Assembly (NCBI GenBank): GCA_009192285.1
Contig: CM018609.1
Coordinates: 186,001-250,000 of the forward strand
Source of the DNA: Morchella semilibera
Lineage: Eukaryota; Ascomycota; Pezizomycetes; Pezizales; Morchellaceae
Direction of reading: 5' to 3'
DNA length: 64,000 nucleotides
The position numbers and the translations under genes are program-made. Position 1 is the first letter of the stretch; each line of letters opens with the position of its first letter. Under the pieces are notes generated by a model that saw only the letters and a list, made by a program, of their open reading frames with translations, was not told the origin of the DNA and ran no database searches. This document shows positions 27,224 to 59,600 of the stretch, piece by piece.

Positions 27224-27569
27224 CCGCACCACCACCACCGCCGTAGCTCAACTCTGTACTGTAGTGAATATCGTTGTTTCTGTAAATCTGCCCGTAGCTA
27301 GAGAGTCTCTCGCGTGGGAAGAATGTATTTCGCTAGGCTTGGCGGCGTGTTGGCGTGGTTACGGGCCGTGATGGAGCGCCAGTAGTTAAAAAACTGAGAC
27401 CCAAGGGTTAGCCACGGCGCTAGAAAAGTAAACAAACAAAACAAAGCAAAACAATAGCAAACCCCACCTCCCGCCCTCTCCCCTTCTTTCTCACCATCCT
27501 CATATCATATCATCACTTTTCAACTCTCCACACATTCACAGATCTACACATTCCCACTTTCCACTCCCA

Positions 27570-27592
27570 CACACACACACACACACACACAT
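27570..27592. repeat. CA microsatellite
   Basis: About eleven CA units just before the start codon at 27603, within the likely 5' leader. Confidence 0.85.
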
Positions 27593-27602
27593 ACATATCA
27601 AG

Positions 27603-30600
27603 ATGTCTGCCACAACCACCACCACCGCCAATACCAACGGGGAGCAGGTCATGCCGGCCGAGTCGATTCCCAGAATCACCCGGCTGACCTTCAGCCTTGC
27701 CGTGACCCCCGCGCAAGGGGAGGTCGACGAGGAGGTGTTTGGGCCCGCCGAGAAGGAGATTGCCTTCTACCTGCTGAACATGCAGGTTCCTGCCGCCGTG
27801 GTGTGCAGGAGGTACATGTTTGGCAGCACGGCCACTTGGGAGGATGAGAGGGAGGAGAGGGAGAGAGCTGAGAGGGTGCTCGGAGTGGTTAGGCTGCATG
27901 TAGGTTTTTGCTTTCCTTTCGTATTTTATGTTGTAGTGTTTTTATTATCATTTATGGGCTGTGAATATGTATTTGGTCTTATTGTATCTGTAACGGTCAT
28001 GAAATGCTACCACTCCGTATTCCTATACCACCTTCCCAATCCATATATCACTACCCACCACTCTCCAACCTCGCTCTATATATCCAAAACTAACACCCCA
28101 TAGGGCCTAACACTCACCCACGTCAAGTTCACAGAGGTGCGCACCGAGACGCGCACAGCCACCATGACGCTGTACCTGCGCATGGGCCCCCACAGCGGGC
28201 ATCTGCTCAAGGCAGAGCCCATGGTGACGGCCATGCACGTCAGCTGCATCGACCCGCCCGTCTGGCGGCCCGCAGCCTGGCTGATCAAGGAGATGGCCGA
28301 GGAGGCCATGTGCATGCTGCGGTCCACCACTGCGGTCGAGGGCAGCGAGCTGGCCCAGATGATCAGGTTGAGGGTCCAGCAGAAGGTATGTTTTCGAGTA
28401 TACTGTCTTTTTTGGTGGTGCAGGACTAACGGGGTTGATAGGTCCTCCACGGGGTGGTTGACTGGAGGCTGGAAGGCCTGTTCCTGGTGTTCTTGAAGAG
28501 GGTAGGTTTTCTCATCTTTTCCTATTAGGGCTTTAACTGGACTAACAATTGTGAACAGGGCTTCATGATCGAGGACGCCAGCGTAGTATACTACGATGAG
28601 AACGGAGCGCAGGTTTCTAGGTTCAACCTAGAAATCTCTCGTACCGTATGTCATATATTCCCCGCCCTTCCTATATATAAATACTAACAATATATTGACA
28701 GAACCCGACCCACATCGGGGGACTCAACTGGCTAGAGTCCTACCCGGTGACAATGAGGGCTCTAGACGCGAGCCGCAGCCGGCCTGAATCCTCAGCGCCA
28801 AAGAGGGTCGCGAGGACCAAGAGGTCAGGCAAGGGGACCGGGCCAGCGCTCCAGGAGCCCGAGCCATGCAGGCAGACCGTCCCTGCTGGGTCCCCGAGCC
28901 ATGAAGAGGATCCCGACTACCTCTTGGCCCTCTCCCTCCAGGCCATGTTCGACGAGGAGGCAAAAGCGGGCGGCGAGTCACAAGTCGCCGCTGACGCCGC
29001 CCTCGCCGCACGCCTACAGGCCGCCGAGGAACTGGCTGCCAAGGCCCCAGTCCCCGCTCCCGCCGCCCCAGTCCCCACTCCCACCGCCCCGATCCCTGTC
29101 CCGGCCCCAGTCCCCGCTCCCACCGCCCCAGTGCCTGTCCCAGTCCCCGCTCCCGCCCAGTCCAGAGGCAAGAAGCGAAAGGGCAGAGCACTCGGCGACG
29201 ACGAGCTGCCAGTCCATGGCGACGCTGCGGGATACGAGCAGACGCAGCAGAACAAGCGTCGCAGGTTGTCACCTCCTGCACCCTCGTGCCCAGCTGTCGC
29301 CGTCCCCGTCATGGGACCAATGGACTGTCCGCCCCCGCCGCCTGCAGCTGTCGAGTCAACAGCCGCTGCAGACCACGGCGACACAGCGGGAACCGGGCAG
29401 CCGCAGGAGCACAGGCCTCGCCTGTCGTCTCCTGCACCCGAGTCCCCAGCTGTCGCCGTCCCGGACATGGGACGTATGGACTCCCTGCCGCCGCCACCCC
29501 CCACAGCTGTCGAGTCACCAGCTGCTGCCGCCGTCATCCCGGACGCGGCAACGCCAATCTTCTCCCCGCAACCTCTCCGAGCGCTCAAGACCGAGCTGAG
29601 TCCCAGACCGCTCAGGAAAAGCGCATTCAGACCGCGCTACATCCTGCAGCGTGAGTTTGTCCGCCGGGACTCGGCCACCCTAGAGCGCATGGCCGCACGA
29701 GCCGGGGTCAAAGCCCACGACCCCTTCGTCACACGGCGCGGGCAGACAAACCGACGCCGCGAGGCAACTCGACGGGGTTGGTTCCGAAAGCCCCTCGAGC
29801 AGCGGGCCGCTGACGCAGAGGCTGTGTTTGGGGAGAGAGTGGAGCCTGCAGAGGTTCCGCTGGCGTGGGCGGGCGAGGAGTCAAGGGGGGAGCCAGAGCC
29901 AGAGCCATGGAGAAAGCAGATCTCTGCTAAGGAGCTCGAGGCCAGGAGAGAGGCGAGAATGAGGTGGCCGCGCGATACGCCGGAGTGCTTCAAGCGCCAG
30001 CGTGACCCTAAGGACAGGGTTTCGAGTCCTGGGGTTGCGCCGCCGGTGTTCGTCAGGGGTACTCCAAACCCTGCCCCGAGGAGGGTGAGGAGGAACCCCA
30101 AGCCGGTGCCCGCGCGAGAGGCCAGAGAGAGGAGCAGGAAGCCCGCAGCGCCCAAGAAGGCTGCAAGGGTGAGCACCAAGGCAGGGGTGCCCGTCAAGGT
30201 GGACAGCCAGGCAGGTTCGCCTGCCCGGATGAACACCAAGCCCCCTGCCATGGAGGCGCCCAGACCTCTCTTCCCGCATGCCCAGCGCTGCCACTCCTAC
30301 GCCGGCGTCTCCAAGAACGTCAAGAGGGGATCCAGTATCTCCAGGCACCTCCTGGTTGCCTTCGCTGCCGTCGGAGTTGTCGCCGTCACATTGAGTGTCG
30401 GTGACATGATGGCCCCACCGCTGCTACATAGTCCTGCGGTTCAGGAGATGTATGCTGGTGCGGACGCGGGGGCGACCAGATTCTTGCCTCCTCCGCAGGC
30501 TCCAGTGGATAGGGATGGGGACTCCCAGATGGCGGGCCCCGGGTCGGGGGTACCAATTTCGGAGATGTATAGGGTGGGGGATAGGAGGGTTCTTGTTGAG

Positions 30601-30760
30601 GGTTTGTATTCCATTTCTTACTGTTTTTTTAGTAAAGTTCAAGATACTAATGAGTTGCTGGTCATCTCCAGAGTGCTTAGCTGGACCAGCGACCATCCTG
30701 GCGTATGCCATGGCCGCTGTTGGCGGGTTCCTGCTCAGCAGGTTCGGGGCGGGGTTGTGA
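27603..30760 (+). CDS. Six-exon gene: 904-aa protein, UIM-like helix, two C-terminal hydrophobic segments
   Basis: Exons are 27603-27899, 28104-28385, 28442-28501, 28559-28645, 28702-30601 and 30672-30760. The first four introns are phase 0; the last is phase 1, with a TACTAAT branch site. Residues 1-250 look like a folded domain (TRLTFSLAV, HVKFTEVRTET, MHVSCIDPPVW, VVYYDENGAQVSRF) that I do not recognise. Residues about 309-325 (DPDYLLALSLQAMFDEE) resemble a ubiquitin-interacting motif, followed by a second Ala/Leu helix and a Pro/Ala/Val repeat (about 357-394). A basic GKKRKGR follows, then a unit of about 46 residues present twice (about 418-520). Near the end come a hydrophobic stretch LVAFAAVGVVAVTLSVGDM (about 791-809) and, in the last exon, LAGPATILAYAMAAVGGFLL. 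The last splice puts this second segment in frame, which supports the model. Membrane anchoring is an inference. GC content is high throughout. Confidence 0.75.
29230..29530 (+). repeat. In-frame duplication inside the 904-aa protein gene
   Basis: Two adjacent units of about 46-50 codons share RLSPPAPSCPAVAVPVMG / RLSSPAPESPAVAVPDMG, then PPPPP and AVES. The duplication keeps the frame. Confidence 0.75.
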
Positions 30761-30949
30761 GGAGAGCGCTCTAGGCGTTAGAAGGTGGGGGGTGAAGTAT
30801 ATAGGGCTGCGTGCCCAAAAATCCCCGAGCGTATGTATTATCCCTATTCCCATTCTTACTCTTATTTTATATTTTAAGTAGCTTGCTAACCTAAATTTTC
30901 TTTTTTTTTTATATATATATCCATAATTTCCGTCATTCGGATGGCGCAG

Positions 30950-31121
30950 CTGCACGAGGGGTATGCCCTGAGAGGTGAAGGGCATAGTTTGGTATGTTCT
31001 CACATTTTCTCTTTCTTGACATAAATAAACCAAGGCGGGCTGACTGATTTATTGTGTCGATTCAGGGTGTCGGAAGACATTCGGTGTTGAGGTTTTGGTG
31101 GCGGCAAGCTTGATGGCCAAG
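30950..31121 (+). ncRNA. Two short leader exons with simple hairpins
   Basis: Exon 30950-30991 contains TATGCCCT and AGGGCATA, an exact eight-base-pair stem around nine bases. Exon 31066-31121 begins with TGTCGGAAGACA, a four-base-pair stem closed by a GGAA (GNRA-type) loop. Their separation by an intron with a CTGAC branch supports a transcript read from the plus strand. Confidence 0.45.
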
Positions 31122-31184
31122 GTAAGCAATCACCTATATTCATGTAAAAACAATCATTACCCAATCCGAATGAACTGCTAACAG

Positions 31185-31375
31185 AAAGTGTTCCAATAGT
31201 CTCCTAGAGCCTTCTCCTCTCCACAACTGAGGATTTAGATACGCTGGGAAACCGGCGCTAATCTAAGTCCGCCTGGGTAGATCTTGGTAGCACGCGGCGA
31301 CCATTGATCCGCTCAGCCTGAAGGAGGAGCTGGCTCTCGTATGGAGACTGGCTAGAGTGGGGCCTCTCAGTTTGG
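31185..31375 (+). ncRNA. Exon with first type-2 hairpin
   Basis: The type-2 hairpin at 31232-31269 has arms GATTTAGAT and ATCTAAGTC, an inner stem CGCTGG/CCGGCG (one G-U) and a GAAA loop. Downstream, GATC..GGT and ACC..GATC around GCACGCGGCG (about 31280-31309) form another nested hairpin of the type-1 general shape. Confidence 0.5.
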
Positions 31376-31432
31376 GTACGTTATATCTCACTCCTCTTCT
31401 TCTACCCTCATACCCCGCTAACACGAGATTAG

Positions 31433-31661
31433 ATCAAATGTCTCTTGGGCATCTAAACGATCACCACCTACGCTGGACACTCGGCGCAAAGGTGGTGATC
31501 GATTGGGTGTAAGGATCGCGATCGTCCACCCACCCCGTCTCTGAAGACCTCGCTGGGCAACCGGCGGTAACTTCAAAGGTGGGAAGGGCCACCATGTACG
31601 GTGGTACAGGTGGCGCCAAAATAGGACCTTTGCGTGACAGTGGAGGCATTTTCCTTCGTGG
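31433..31661 (+). ncRNA. Exon module: type-1, type-2, type-3 hairpins
   Basis: Type 1 at 31458-31501 has an exact 11-bp arm pair, CGATCACCACC with GGTGGTGATCG, around TA-CGCTG-GACACT-CGGCG-CAAA. Type 2 at 31542-31575 has TGAAG with CTTCA around CGCTGG-GCAA-CCGGCG; CCACC and GGTGG outside may extend the stem. A third hairpin at 31587-31617 pairs GGCCACC with GGTGGCGCC around TGTACGGTGGTACA. Confidence 0.6.
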
Positions 31662-31716
31662 GTATGTATTTTTCCCTTTCCACCTTTCCTTGAGATTTTC
31701 TAACTTGTGAGATTAG

Positions 31717-31912
31717 ATAAAAATTGCAAACGACTCTCGACACCCACCTACGCTGTAGCTCAGCCGGCGCCAAGGTGGGTGTTGGGACGATGTTATCCCT
31801 GTCCCGCCTTTCGACCGGCTCACTGGGGAGCCGTTGTCAAAGGTTGAAGTACTCTAGTAGGCGGGGGAACCTGCTCTATTTGAGTTACTCAGTGGAGGGA
31901 AGTCAATTTATG
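31717..31912 (+). ncRNA. Exon module, 196 nt: type-1, type-2, type-3 hairpins
   Basis: Type 1 at 31737-31785 uses arms ACACCCACC and GGTGGGTGT around CGCTG...CGGCG. Type 2 at 31807-31843 uses CCTTTCGAC and GTCAAAGG around GGCTC...GAGCC. Type 3 at 31848-31890 uses AGTACTC and GAGTTACT around GCGGG-GGAA-CCTGC. Confidence 0.6.
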
Positions 31913-31971
31913 GTGAGCTTCCTTATATTTTCATATCTCTTTCACTATAGATCACTAACCTACAGCCTCAG

Positions 31972-32166
31972 GTAGAATTGCAAACTTCGTTCTCGACACC
32001 CACCTACGCTGTAGCTATGCCGGCGCCAAGGTGGGTGTTGAGACGATGTTAGCCCTGCCTTTCGACAGGTCCACCAGGGACCGGTGGTGGTGTCAAAGGT
32101 TGGGTACTCTAGTGCGCAGGGGAACCTGCGTAAGTGGAGTACTCAGAGGAGGGTAGTCAATTCGTG
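31972..32166 (+). ncRNA. Exon module, 195 nt: near-duplicate of the previous exon
   Basis: Type 1 at 31992-32042 has CTCGACACCCACC with GGTGGGTGTTGAG, 13 pairs including one G-U. Type 2 at 32058-32099 has CCTTTCGACA with TGTCAAAGG around GGTCC...GGACC. Type 3 at 32104-32142 has GTACTC with GAGTAC around an exact CGCAGG-GGAA-CCTGCG. It is preceded, like the previous exon, by an intron of nearly the same length (55 and 59 nt). Confidence 0.65.
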
Positions 32167-32222
32167 GTACGTTTACTTCTCCCACACGATTTGTTTGTAA
32201 TTCCACTAACTTTTGAGGACAG

Positions 32223-32700
32223 TTTCTACACCCCCAGGCCGTTCCCAACGTCTCACCTACGCTGGATGCTTCGGCGCCAAGGTGAAGACGGGGGGTCCTG
32301 CCCTTACGCCCGCCCTACGACTAGTTTGCTGGGAAACCGGCAGAAATGTCAAAGGCTCAGAGTCTTCCGGTACGCGGGGAAACCTGCGCCAACTGGAGTG
32401 CTCTGCGGTTGTCCTCACCTCTCACCTACGCTGGAGTCTGCGGCGCCAAGGTGACGAGGAGAGGATACGGGCCCCCACCCACCCACTAGTCAGCCACTTC
32501 AACGGCTCGCTGGGAAACCGGCGGTCTGTTGGAAAGGCACGAGTGGGTTCTGACCCTCCCCCCCAACAAACCAACAAACAACCATTCCAAGTGTTCGCTG
32601 GGAAACCGGCGGTATCTCGGAATGGTTGTGAGCTCTGTGTACGCTGGACGGCCGGCGCCAACACAGTTGCTCAAGTTCGGGAGGGAGGGGGAGATTCTGG
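32223..32700 (+). ncRNA. Terminal exon with seven hairpins
   Basis: Order: type 1 (32249-32290; CGTCTCACC with GGTGAAGACG), type 2 (32312-32356; GGGAAACC tip), type 3 (32358-32405; CAGAG with CTCTG, CGCGG-GGAA tip), type 1 (32413-32464), type 2 (32497-32537), type 2 (32580-32627; exact AACCATTCC with GGAATGGTT) and type 1 (32630-32673; CTGTG with CACAG around CGCTGG-ACGG-CCGGCG). No further intron was seen, and the 3' end is not defined. Confidence 0.6.
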
Positions 32701-38427: not shown

Positions 38428-39826
38428 TTAAATAAAGCTGACTTCGTTGGGTTCTTGAGAGAAGTGAACGCACCGATAGTTCATTGCCAGGGCATCACAA
38501 AGATGATCCTCGAGACGAAACGCAGGCTTTAGAATAGCGTAAGCCTCCCTCCACAAGTTGCAATCGATTATATCCATGGCCATCAACCCATCTTTATCTT
38601 TGATCCTCCAGTTGATATCCTCCCTAACCAACGCCTCAATACATTTGAGGCAACCCTTCTTCGCAGCATAATGAAGAGCTGACTGTCCTTGATTATCCAC
38701 AAAGTCCATGATCCCCATATTCTGCCCGCGAAGAACTCTGATCACATTATGCCTGCACCTCTCCACCGCCATGTGAATCACGCCCATTCTGAGAGCTGAG
38801 CTTGTGATGTTAAGGTTGGTTCCACTACTAGCGCAGAGGGCTGTGACCACCCGGAGAATATCATCATCAAGACCCTGTGCAGATGTCACGCCGTGGTATT
38901 TGAGGGCAAGCATCAAGCTGCTCCTGGGTGTTTCAGTGTTCGTGGCGAGTGCACCATTTTGAAGCAATAATTCGACAAGATCTGGCTGAGCACCAAGGAT
39001 TGCGGTGTTAAGAATGGTATCCGCAGTTACATCTCTCCTATAGTTTAAATCTGCCCCCTCATCCAAGAGGAGCTTTGTAATTTCAAGGTGCCCTTGGAGG
39101 ACGGATAGCATAATAGATGTACGGCCAAGTGAATCTTTGTGATGGACATTCGCACCAATAGCCAACAGCAAATCAACCATCCCAGTGCGGCCTCTTGTGA
39201 TGGCTATGTATAGTGGAGTCATCCCTTCGAGGTCAGTTGTCTCTAGCTCCAGTCGGCCGTAAGAGCAGATAAAATGTAGTGCAGCGGAAACGTCCCCCCA
39301 CATTGCGACACATGCCAAAGGAGTCCATGCGCCCACACAGCCCCTCTGAACGTACTCCCGTGGATCCCTGAACCGTCTTAAGCACTTGTGACACTCCATG
39401 CGGGCACCAAATAGCATCATTGGACCCTCTCCAGCAATTGTGACCTTCTTGACGAGCGTGTTTAAGAGTAGGTCCCACAGGTCATTACCGCTTCCCTCCA
39501 TTGCGTGTAGAAAGAGGTGCAGAGAGAAGCGAGTCATATGTTCGGCGAGGTTTATGTAGATCTCTGCGGGGAGATTCGAGAGCGATACCTGCCGCTTTGT
39601 GGGGCTGGAATTGGGCGTAGTGGGGCCAGGGGGAGTAGAGCCTGCTGCTTCTGAAGTTGCGATTGCTTTAGCCGTTGGTCCTTGGGATTTGCACAGTTTG
39701 CTACAATAGGGCCAGGGGAAAATAGTTACCAAAAAGAGGGCGCTGATGCTCTTCAGAAGGTAGTAGGTCCAGGTAGGAAGGATCTAGGAGACTATCCCGA
39801 TTCTTCTGTTGCAAGCCGACCGCCAT
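38428..39826 (-). CDS. F-box-like and ankyrin-repeat protein, 439 aa
   Basis: Exon 1 is 39826-39730, starting at ATG with MAVGLQQKNR. A 79-nt intron (GTAACT, GGCTAAAG branch, TTCAG) runs 39729-39651 and exon 2 is 39650-38428. Read straight through, the first frame would stop, so the splice is needed. Residues about 54-95 (LSNLPAEIYINLAEHM) match the start of an F-box-like segment, which in fungi links targets to SCF ubiquitin ligase. Ankyrin repeats follow at about 140-170, 174-206 (GMTPLYIAITRGRTGMVDLLL), 207-240 (GHLEITKLLLDEGADLN), 241-270, 305-345 and 353-385 (SALHYAAKKGCLKCIEALV). Ankyrin repeats bind proteins and have no enzyme activity. Function beyond that is unknown. Confidence 0.85.
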
Positions 39827-57626: not shown

Positions 57627-59600
57627 TCACTTCGAAACTGCCCGTCCCTTCCCCTTCAAGTCTTTTGTGGGTTCCTTTCTCCGCACGGGAAGAGGTACAG
57701 CGCCACCGGTTTCTGTTATCTGCTGGGGCCAATTGATCATATCTGCTACCTCGTGGTGGACACCTTCGTCTCCGCTAGCCTCCCTCGGCTGGGACATGTT
57801 CGATGCACTGCTAGGTTCTGCGGGAGAGTTATCGACCTCGCCTACCCGGTCTCCGGGAACAGGAGCTTGTTTTCCGATGTCGTCTTCTCCACGTTTGCGC
57901 TTGTTTCTATTTTCCTTCGACGGTCCAGTGGCGTGTGTTTGGGTATGGCGATTACGCAAGTAGTTACTTGTGAACGTCTCTCCGCATACCGTACAGGGAA
58001 AAGCGGGATCCTCTTTGCGCGGAATTTCGAGTGAGTACTGCCTATGTGCCGCATAATGGGTCCTTCTGAGTTTGCGAGTGGTGAGTTTTGCCCCACAAAC
58101 TCGGCAATCATAGCCAGCCCTTTCGGTGTTTGATCCCTCCCCGGTGGGAATTTCAGTGAACCCTTCCCTGGCGTTAAAGTCCTCGTCATCTTGAGGATCC
58201 GGAACCACGTCTGCTAGGCTCCGGGCTCCTGCCTCCCCTGCGACAAATCTTCCTTGCTTATGAAGCTTTTGGTGCTGGGCAGCAGTGTGCGGGCTAGTCA
58301 GAGTAACGGCGCACTTTACGCACCTATGAACTTTGTAGCCCTCAAGGTGAGTCTGTTGGTGTTGGCGGAAGAGCTTGGCCCTGTCAACGACAAACGGACA
58401 CTGGTCGCATCTTTGCAGCGGCCGGCCAGAGTAGTGTGCCTCTGCTGCAGCTGTTAATTCTGGGGTAAGTTCCTCTGGGTGACAGAGGTGCATAGCTATA
58501 TGACTTTTTAAGCTTCCGGGATTCGTGACGACGGTTGGACAGATGGGGCAGTGACAGTTTGTTAGAGGTCTGCTTCCTGCCCCTGGCTTGTCCGCCTGAA
58601 CCCTCATGTGACTCCTGTAATGTTTATTGAGCCCGATAATAGTTGGGAAGGTAAGGCCACAGTCGGCGCAGACAAAACCAGCAGAGGTCACTGTTCGCAG
58701 TGTCTTTGGTTTTCCGAATGAAGGCCGTTTAACGCCAACGAGCTTTCGCTGCTGACGGGGGACCTCGTCTTCGTTTTTGGCCTTTTTGTGCGACCCTTGC
58801 GTGCTCGATTCGCCAGCATCACTGCGACCTGGTTGGAAAGGTTGAGAAAGCTCTTGATTGATCTGGGCGTAGCCGTTGTCTGGATTGTACTGTATGGGGC
58901 TTGGCTCCTGGTTTTCGGGCTCGGGCGCGAGATATTCATGGTCGCCAAAGACGTTGAACGGTGCCATTGGTACATTGACACCATATTGGGGCGGGGTTCC
59001 CCATCGCACCATTATTGGAGTAGCGGACTCGAAATAGTGGGGGGGCGCATAAAGAGGGAGAGGGCTCATGGTGTAGGATACACCATTGAAGAGAGGACTA
59101 GAGGGGGGAGTTCCATAGCTTTGGTCCGGGCTTTGCTGATAACTATGATTTGGATCTCCACTAGTTTGGCTACCCAGTACTGTGAAGGGGTGATCAAACC
59201 CCGCCAGGGGCACAGAGCTGGGGTGGGACTGATTATAGTTGACTAGCGGCCCTAGTAGATCCTCGAGACCACTAGGTGTACTAGGTTGGTGAATGAATTG
59301 GGAGCTTGACGATGACGAGTGTTGGTATTCTGGAGCATCCTCGATCTCCGCAGGAAAGCAAACCTCGCCGCCGCGGGGTTCTCTTTGATGTTGTAATTCT
59401 GGGTTTACTTGTACCAATTAGTCACTCTAGTTTTAGGGGAGAATGATTGAGGTATTGAAAATTAAAATCAATTAATGTGCGCCCCGGAGCGACAGACCTT
59501 GCTCCCCAAGGTCAAAAAACCTAAATCCCCAGTCCTTTGTATCGTTCTCAATTTTAACAGGTGAATCATCTGGTGGCAGCTGATCTGACAGAAAATCCAT
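57627..59600 (-). CDS. Six-finger C2H2 zinc-finger protein, two exons, 627 aa
   Basis: Exon 1 is 59600-59498 (MDFLSDQLPPDDSPVKIEND), an acidic start. The intron runs 59497-59408 (GTCTGT donor, GACTAAT branch, ACAAG acceptor, phase 1) and exon 2 59407-57627. The large frame has no ATG near its start and has a stop just before the acceptor, which demands this exon. Residues about 35-270 are Pro/Ser/Tyr-rich and disordered, as in activation regions. Six fingers follow at about 279-301, 319-341, 367-388, 396-417, 468-489 and 505-526 (for example CADCGLTFPTIIGLNKHYRSH). After the last finger comes SKENRNKRKRG, a likely nuclear signal. A DNA-binding transcription factor is the natural reading. Fingers 2 and 3 are separated by a spacer like that of the two smaller zinc-finger genes nearby. 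Confidence 0.8.

Follow-up and report, generated by a model that had tools for sequence, protein, structure and literature searches.

A putative spliced noncoding RNA gene of Morchella semilibera composed of tandem modules of related hairpins

Among the noncoding RNAs that carry a recognition motif many times over, CsrB/CsrC and RsmY/Z are bacterial and unspliced. E. coli CsrB contains 22 GGA sequences, the majority of which are CsrA sites (excerpt of PMC7652899), and the roX RNAs of Drosophila are long noncoding RNAs (lncRNAs) with stem-loops bound by the helicase MLE (excerpt of PMC6451107). GOLLD, ROOL and OLE are natural RNAs that form RNA-only complexes (excerpt of PMC12286853). On a smaller scale, ies6, one of the fungal motifs of Li and Breaker (2017), is a GNRA-capped hairpin with internal loops (excerpt of PMC5640933), and the C-loop is said to adjust the helical twist for a hairpin-loop tertiary contact (excerpt of PMC8570644).

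Here we describe a locus in a window of 64,000 nucleotides of the Morchella semilibera genome (the whole stretch of DNA analysed; contig CM018609.1, positions 186,001 to 250,000, renumbered below from 1), where the plus strand carries 16 related hairpins at 31.2-32.7 kb, arranged as tandem modules in exons separated by intron-like segments. The region 28.5-35.5 kb was read directly, and motif scans, repeat finding and folding followed. A selected structured RNA at 30792..32700 is in our opinion very probable, and it is likely to be both spliced and noncoding. That the locus gives rise to an RNA is what we infer from its sequence; the transcript would be a spliced noncoding RNA of roughly 1.2-1.5 kb. 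Such a molecule would resemble CsrB/CsrC and RsmY/Z in that a single noncoding RNA repeats its recognition motifs many times on hairpins (as these are described in an excerpt of PMC7652899), but RNAs of the CsrB type present single-stranded GGA in hairpin loops, whereas the locus has long covarying stems, internal loops with GNRA tips, and intron-like segments. The letters GGA occur in 13 of the 16 cores; a GGA lying wholly in a single-stranded loop, as in CsrB and RsmZ, is found in about three (B3, C3 and C1), the first G's being paired elsewhere in the predicted folds. The likeness to roX, drawn by description, is that of a eukaryotic lncRNA with stem-loops, of which the locus has about 16 in duplicated exons. 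GOLLD, ROOL and OLE have in common with it a large, elaborate covarying structure and a poorly understood function (excerpt of PMC12286853), but they are bacterial and phage RNAs, and their Rfam models matched nothing at the locus. Finally, ies6, compared in sequence via Rfam only, forms a single extended hairpin next to a particular protein gene, whereas the locus is a tandem multi-exon array.

Three related classes cover all 16 hairpins (Table 1). Type 2 (A2, B2, C2, D2, E2 and F2, with cores at 31469, 31749, 32005, 32258, 32427 and 32640) starts from an outer arm and a U-A pair, followed by a 1x3 internal loop and then a CGCUG/CGGCG helix containing a U-G wobble, and ends in a variable tip; the loop sets A against CCA (CAA in A2). 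Type 3 (Z1, C3, D3 and a decayed B3) combines a 1x3 loop with a helix of this kind and a GNRA cap. Type 1 (A1, D1, E1, F1 and two decayed, degenerate copies, B1 at 31816 and C1 at 32068) has a 3x3 internal loop, a U-G pair and the same helix, with a GNRA cap in the four good copies. Common to them is an inner block, consisting of the helix CGCUGG/CCGGCG with its U-G wobble, a 1x3 or 3x3 loop below and, in half of the hairpins, GNRA above, of which 13 good copies (nine plus four) would stand on one putative RNA. The wobble has become G-U in D3 and A-U in C3, with both sides changed, and is kept as U-G in Z1. In nine aligned hairpins the 1x3 loop sits at a constant distance from the tip helix, and in its long strand the third base is A in 9/9 and the first is C in 8/9. 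The consensus of the C-loop is an asymmetric internal loop, with a long strand starting with C and a set of non-canonical pairs; the 1x3 loop of the locus, likewise asymmetric and usually beginning with C, resembles it in these two respects.

Table 1. Features of the locus (window positions; arm values are shuffles as good per 1000)
Feature	Position	Strand	Remarks
Putative spliced noncoding RNA gene	30792..32700	+	from exons, intron scan and hairpins; both ends guessed
Intron 1, candidate, weaker	30831..30949	+	119 nt; acceptor by eye; no strict match
Intron 2, candidate, weaker	30992..31065	+	without strict branch site
Intron 3, candidate	31122..31199	+	strict-scan acceptor at 31188
Hairpin Z1	31231..31270	+	1x3 loop A/CUA, GAAA tetraloop
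Intron 4, candidate	31376..31432	+	strict match
Hairpin A2, module A (exon 5)	31451..31508	+	type 2; 1x3 loop A/CAA, variable tip
Hairpin A1, module A	31534..31583	+	type 1; 3x3 loop, GCAA tetraloop
Intron 5, candidate	31662..31716	+	strict match
Hairpin B2, module B (exon 6)	31735..31787	+	type 2; 1x3 loop A/CCA
Hairpin B1, module B	31807..31843	+	type 1, degenerate; no GNRA tip; arms borderline (49)
Hairpin B3, module B	31849..31890	+	GGAA tetraloop, 1x3 loop lost; arms unremarkable (194)
Intron 6, candidate	31913..31971	+	strict-scan acceptor at 31965
Hairpin C2, module C (exon 7)	31987..32046	+	type 2; 1x3 loop A/CCA
Hairpin C1, module C	32058..32099	+	degenerate type 1; 7-nt loop (predicted fold)
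Hairpin C3, module C	32100..32146	+	1x3 loop G/UAA, GGAA tetraloop
Intron 7, candidate	32167..32222	+	strict scan adds donors 32112 and 32130 for same acceptor
Hairpin D2, module D (exon 8)	32244..32295	+	type 2; 1x3 loop A/CCA
Hairpin D1, module D	32312..32355	+	type 1; 3x3 loop, GAAA tetraloop; arms unremarkable (233)
Hairpin D3, module D	32354..32410	+	1x3 loop A/CCA, GAAA tetraloop
Hairpin E2, module E (exon 8)	32410..32467	+	type 2; 1x3 loop A/CCA
Hairpin E1, module E	32493..32538	+	type 1; 3x3 loop, GAAA tetraloop
Hairpin F1, module F (exon 8)	32578..32629	+	type 1; 3x3 loop, GAAA tetraloop
Hairpin F2, module F	32630..32672	+	type 2; 1x3 loop A/CCA

A first-pass annotation of this DNA had put the number of hairpins at about 17, with at least six of type 1 and seven of type 2. 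We count 16, six of them of type 2; the seventeenth, which would be the seventh of type 2, is a weak candidate at 31597 that 98 of 500 shuffles fold as well. Modules A to D follow the order type 2, type 1, third hairpin (that of module A, at 31597, being doubtful) and space their type-2 cores by 253-280 bases; modules E and F are shorter. From this kinship and spacing of A to D it follows that an intron-exon unit was duplicated in tandem as the gene grew. Beside the main pattern, the stems of D2, E2 and F2 are slightly interrupted a second time (1x2 when paired by hand), at four to seven pairs beneath the 1x3 loop; A2, B2 and C2 lack this at that point. The variable tips of B2 (TAGCTCAGC, 31756-31764) and C2 (TAGCTATGC, 32012-32020) contain the palindromes AGCT and TAGCTA, respectively, which could form kissing pairs.

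The conservation of the inner parts, and the divergence of outer arms that nevertheless stay complementary, are borne out in the nine hairpins of the 1x3 class, where identity is 0.86 in the core and 0.37 in the arms, and 96% of cells are paired. The three stems quoted in the first-pass annotation are exact: 31458-31468 pairs with 31491-31501 over 11 exact pairs, 31992-32004 with 32030-32042 over 13 pairs (one of them G-U), and 32580-32588 with 32619-32627 over nine exact pairs. The switch from core to arm identity takes place within ten bases, which would not be what gene conversion of whole repeats leaves. In the same nine hairpins 14 cells are changed on both sides, compared to 3.8 in shuffles, and the covariation score is 0.495, compared to 0.161, neither value being matched by any of 500 shuffles; a weaker measure, the number of pairs with two-sided change, is 5 against 3.0 and is reached by 38 of 500. 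In principle, kinship alone can lift related sequences above shuffles, but a sliding-partner control, which retains kinship, lowers pairing to 29-51% and covariation to at most 0.116. The four type-1 hairpins score 0.364 against 0.145 in shuffles (4/500 as high), their further pair types being unremarkable (172/500).

Re-dealing the arms among the hairpins leads to the same view. With all 16 the observed value is -251, against a mean of -106, and none of 20,000 deals is as good, a result which partly reflects differences between the classes; nor is any of 20,000 when C2, a near-duplicate, is left out and 15 remain. Within classes, deals as good number 1/20,000 for eight hairpins of the 1x3 class and 182/20,000 for six of type 1, whilst the 155/20,000 for type 2 (five hairpins) and 830/20,000 for type 3 (four hairpins) are about the floors set by the 120 and 24 possible orders, respectively. 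Taken singly, against 1000 arm shuffles each, 12 of the 16 hairpins are matched by 0-13 shuffles; E1 (27) and B1 (49) are borderline, and the arms of B3 (194) and D1 (233) are no better than shuffles. All of this covariation is between paralogous hairpins of one locus, and it indicates that the stems are maintained mainly by pairing and the inner block by sequence.

Beyond the single hairpins, RNAalifold on modules A-D gives 41 pairs, 10 of which with two-sided change, and shares 12 to 44 pairs with the energy folds of single modules (out of 63-78); given this partial agreement the linkers and outer stems are uncertain. In minimum-energy folds, moreover, exons 5, 6 and 7 each have their two ends paired, which would close the exon on itself into a four-way junction; this arrangement failed the end-arm test and was rejected: shuffles as good number 387, 513 and 49 per 1000 for these three exons, 377 for exon 4 and 613 for module D. 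Stability against shuffles is confined to the exons with hairpins, which together with compensatory change above the controls upholds the description of the locus as structured. Plus-strand fold z-scores of six hairpin segments are -3.4, -6.5, -5.9, -7.6, -5.4 and -8.3, those of the minus strand are -2.5, -3.3, -3.2, -5.9, -0.3 and -4.5, and the plus strand is thus further below its own shuffles in all six. The introns (+0.3 to +1.8) are not stabler than shuffles. Exons 1 to 3 have unexceptional plus-strand values of -1.0, -1.6 and 0.0 (-2.5 for exon 2 on the minus strand), and may lie outside the structured part.

The plus strand is also indicated by eight GNRA tips (at 31243, 31552, 31861, 32116, 32328, 32374, 32509 and 32597), since we know of no stable loop class to which their complementary-strand versions belong. 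Five of these tetraloops are GAAA, two GGAA and one GCAA, so that variation is found only at N; the count arises partly by selection, the search pattern being GNRA-like, but a scan allowing two mismatches would have exposed other letters. With up to two mismatches the tip pattern has 10 sites in 64 kb, eight of which in the locus, compared to 1.42 expected.

The seven intron-like segments reported between the hairpin exons could all be drawn as GT..AG candidates of 55-119 nt, and five fit a strict donor/branch/acceptor pattern. This pattern was composed after the sequence had been seen; it has seven donor matches in the locus, yielding the five introns, against 0.29 expected in shuffles (maximum 4; seven reached by 0/500) and a mean of 0.35 in 62 other tiles (maximum 3), and there are no matches on the minus strand of the locus. 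For introns 3 and 6 the strict scan places the acceptor earlier than drawn. The introns are short, have CTAAC branch sites and a GC content of 29-46%, compared to 53-61% in exons, and none of the 16 hairpins overlaps them. Their presence points to a eukaryote, and their shortness and branch sites hint at an ascomycete. By these sequence tests, splicing signals are above chance on one strand, in agreement with a spliced RNA. Introns 4 and 5 end identically (GAGATTAG, at 31425-31438 and 31709-31722), and the exons that follow start alike, which is perhaps a trace of the duplication of a whole intron-exon unit.

The upstream gene (27432-30760, plus strand) encodes a Pro/Ala/Arg/Lys-rich and probably disordered protein; of its open frames, two lack a Pfam match. 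By eye it has an intron at about 30602-30671, then a short hydrophobic tail and a stop near 30760, about 30 bases before the hairpin locus; three intron stretches there have CTAAC- or CTAAT-type branch sites, like the locus introns. Further along the window, on the minus strand, are an ankyrin-repeat open frame (38431-39783) and a C2H2 zinc-finger open frame (57630-59417).

As far as Rfam 15 and the open-access papers searched reach, the statement that no known fungal family has such a build holds. Rfam 15 has no match at gathering score in the 64 kb, and between 30.7 and 33.0 kb only four below threshold, none of them credible (the best, mir-791, with E 0.34 and 21.9 bits against 70); its H/ACA snoRNA families give no plus-strand match at the locus and one on the minus strand (SNORA14, E 4.2). 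No such RNA is described, by title or abstract start, among the matches listed in open-licence papers. Covariance models built from the hairpins, a search proposed in the first-pass annotation, found no convincing copy outside the locus within the 64-kb window: a nine-member model scores 27.7-41 bits on its own rows and at most 9.9 outside, a four-member model 50.4-52.2 and at most 14.2. A motif pattern scan found 10 loci in bacterial genome contigs, compared to about 6 expected by our own estimate, and 16 in viral contigs, which is near chance by an estimate from the presumed size of the collection; three narrower scans of the viral contigs and blastn in phages and plasmids found nothing. Over these 26 bacterial and viral loci, covariance model R2 has 6 matches (best E 0.47) and R1 has 38 up to E 10, mostly the pattern itself. 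One R1 match in a viral contig (L018, 967-997, minus strand; 24.6 bits, E 0.00015) beats the pattern match of that locus; it forms a similar GC-rich hairpin and is probably due to chance. A second R1 match in L009 has 20.2 bits, and the match in L003 lies inside a bacterial open frame. Seven matches in five loci (L001, L003, L004, L009 and L018) were rejected, their minimum-energy folds differing from the motif. As the bacterial, viral and plasmid collections are non-fungal, they provide weak evidence of absence.

What could such an array be for? Stems kept by pairing around a block kept by sequence are the pattern to be expected if the block is read and the stem presents it. The conserved inner blocks would then be one recognition element, displayed many times on one molecule and binding many copies of an RNA-binding protein, which would either be titrated away from other RNAs, as CsrA is by CsrB in bacteria, or be held in a ribonucleoprotein scaffold, as on the stem-loops of roX in flies. 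Many-fold protein binding by the inner blocks is our first choice of mechanism, to which we give about an even chance. As a whole, duplicated intron-exon modules giving a structured lncRNA, whose repeated recognition element binds protein many-fold, seem to us the best explanation, one we hold with a slight leaning in its favor.

Its main rival is an architecture of RNA only: internal loops would receive the GNRA tetraloops of neighbouring hairpins, in the same or in another molecule, and the RNA would thereby assemble into an ordered particle or array, like the ornate RNAs of bacteria. Eight GNRA tips and a repeated, C-loop-like 1x3 loop, fixed in its distance from the tip helix and in the A and C of its long strand, are what such docking could use, and the GCAA loop and the A/CAA variant are combined in module A alone. 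One co-varying module is no test, however; six type-2 tips are not GNRA (although those of A2 and F2 can close into 4-nt loops), the A/CCA loop differs from the 11-nt GAAA receptor, and the fixed CGCUGG/CCGGCG helix seems, in our judgement, more than docking needs, all of which makes this rival rather unlikely. Bolder, and only tentatively put forward, is the idea of a eukaryotic 'ornate' RNA arisen by exon duplication, with exons as folding modules, as in modular proteins, spliced into an RNA particle with about 16 GNRA and internal-loop elements for contact; to our knowledge no nuclear genome has a counterpart to an exon-built ornate RNA. A fungal Dicer might also process the hairpins to a set of related miRNA-like RNAs, for type-2 stems of roughly 18-23 bp, interrupted (counted by hand from the folds), and many hairpins on one putative transcript would suit a small-RNA precursor. 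We find this improbable, because free arms with fixed tips are the reverse of a conserved small RNA borne on an arm, the paired length of several type-1 and type-3 arms is only 6-13 bp, which we judge short for Dicer, and the GNRA tips would have no role.

Two further readings dispense with a selected noncoding RNA, and to each we give very little chance. Mobile hairpin elements, or a repeat-prone locus, would leave inverted repeats without selection, and the copies here are indeed tandem and clearly related; nevertheless the 64 kb contain no convincing further copy, the sole inverted repeat of long range, found near the 3' end, consists of a C/G-rich run, none of the hairpins extends into a drawn intron, and the spreading of one element would not leave arms that diverge between copies and yet pair. 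Alternatively, the region could code for a protein containing repeats, or belong to the upstream gene as its 3' UTR; the open frame of that gene, on the same strand, stops shortly before it (an end placed by eye), and exon 8 does contain one stretch of 182 codons without a stop, a length that only 6 of 300 shuffles reach. The first ATG of this stretch, however, comes 19 codons before its end, and the spliced RNA has no ATG ORF longer than 67 codons, a length reached by 185 of 300 shuffles. The repeated motif occurs in phases 0, 1 and 2 (with type-2 cores of length 22, 23 or 25), at cut-off none of five unspliced frames of the locus matches Pfam (best E 0.53), and as many as seven introns downstream of a stop codon would, in our judgement, be unusual for a 3' UTR. 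The noncoding character claimed at the outset thus agrees with repeats that keep no common reading frame and with an unexceptional ATG ORF.

Covariation support for structure in eukaryotic lncRNAs is reportedly contested, to go by the title of Rivas et al. of 2017, and the present locus brings its own comparison in the form of sixteen hairpins, most of them with arms that have diverged but remain complementary. Short and uniform as they are, the inner blocks could be used directly as baits for a protein partner. If transcribed, the locus would provide a fungal lncRNA whose structural code is clear, and an instance in which exon duplication builds an RNA as it builds proteins.
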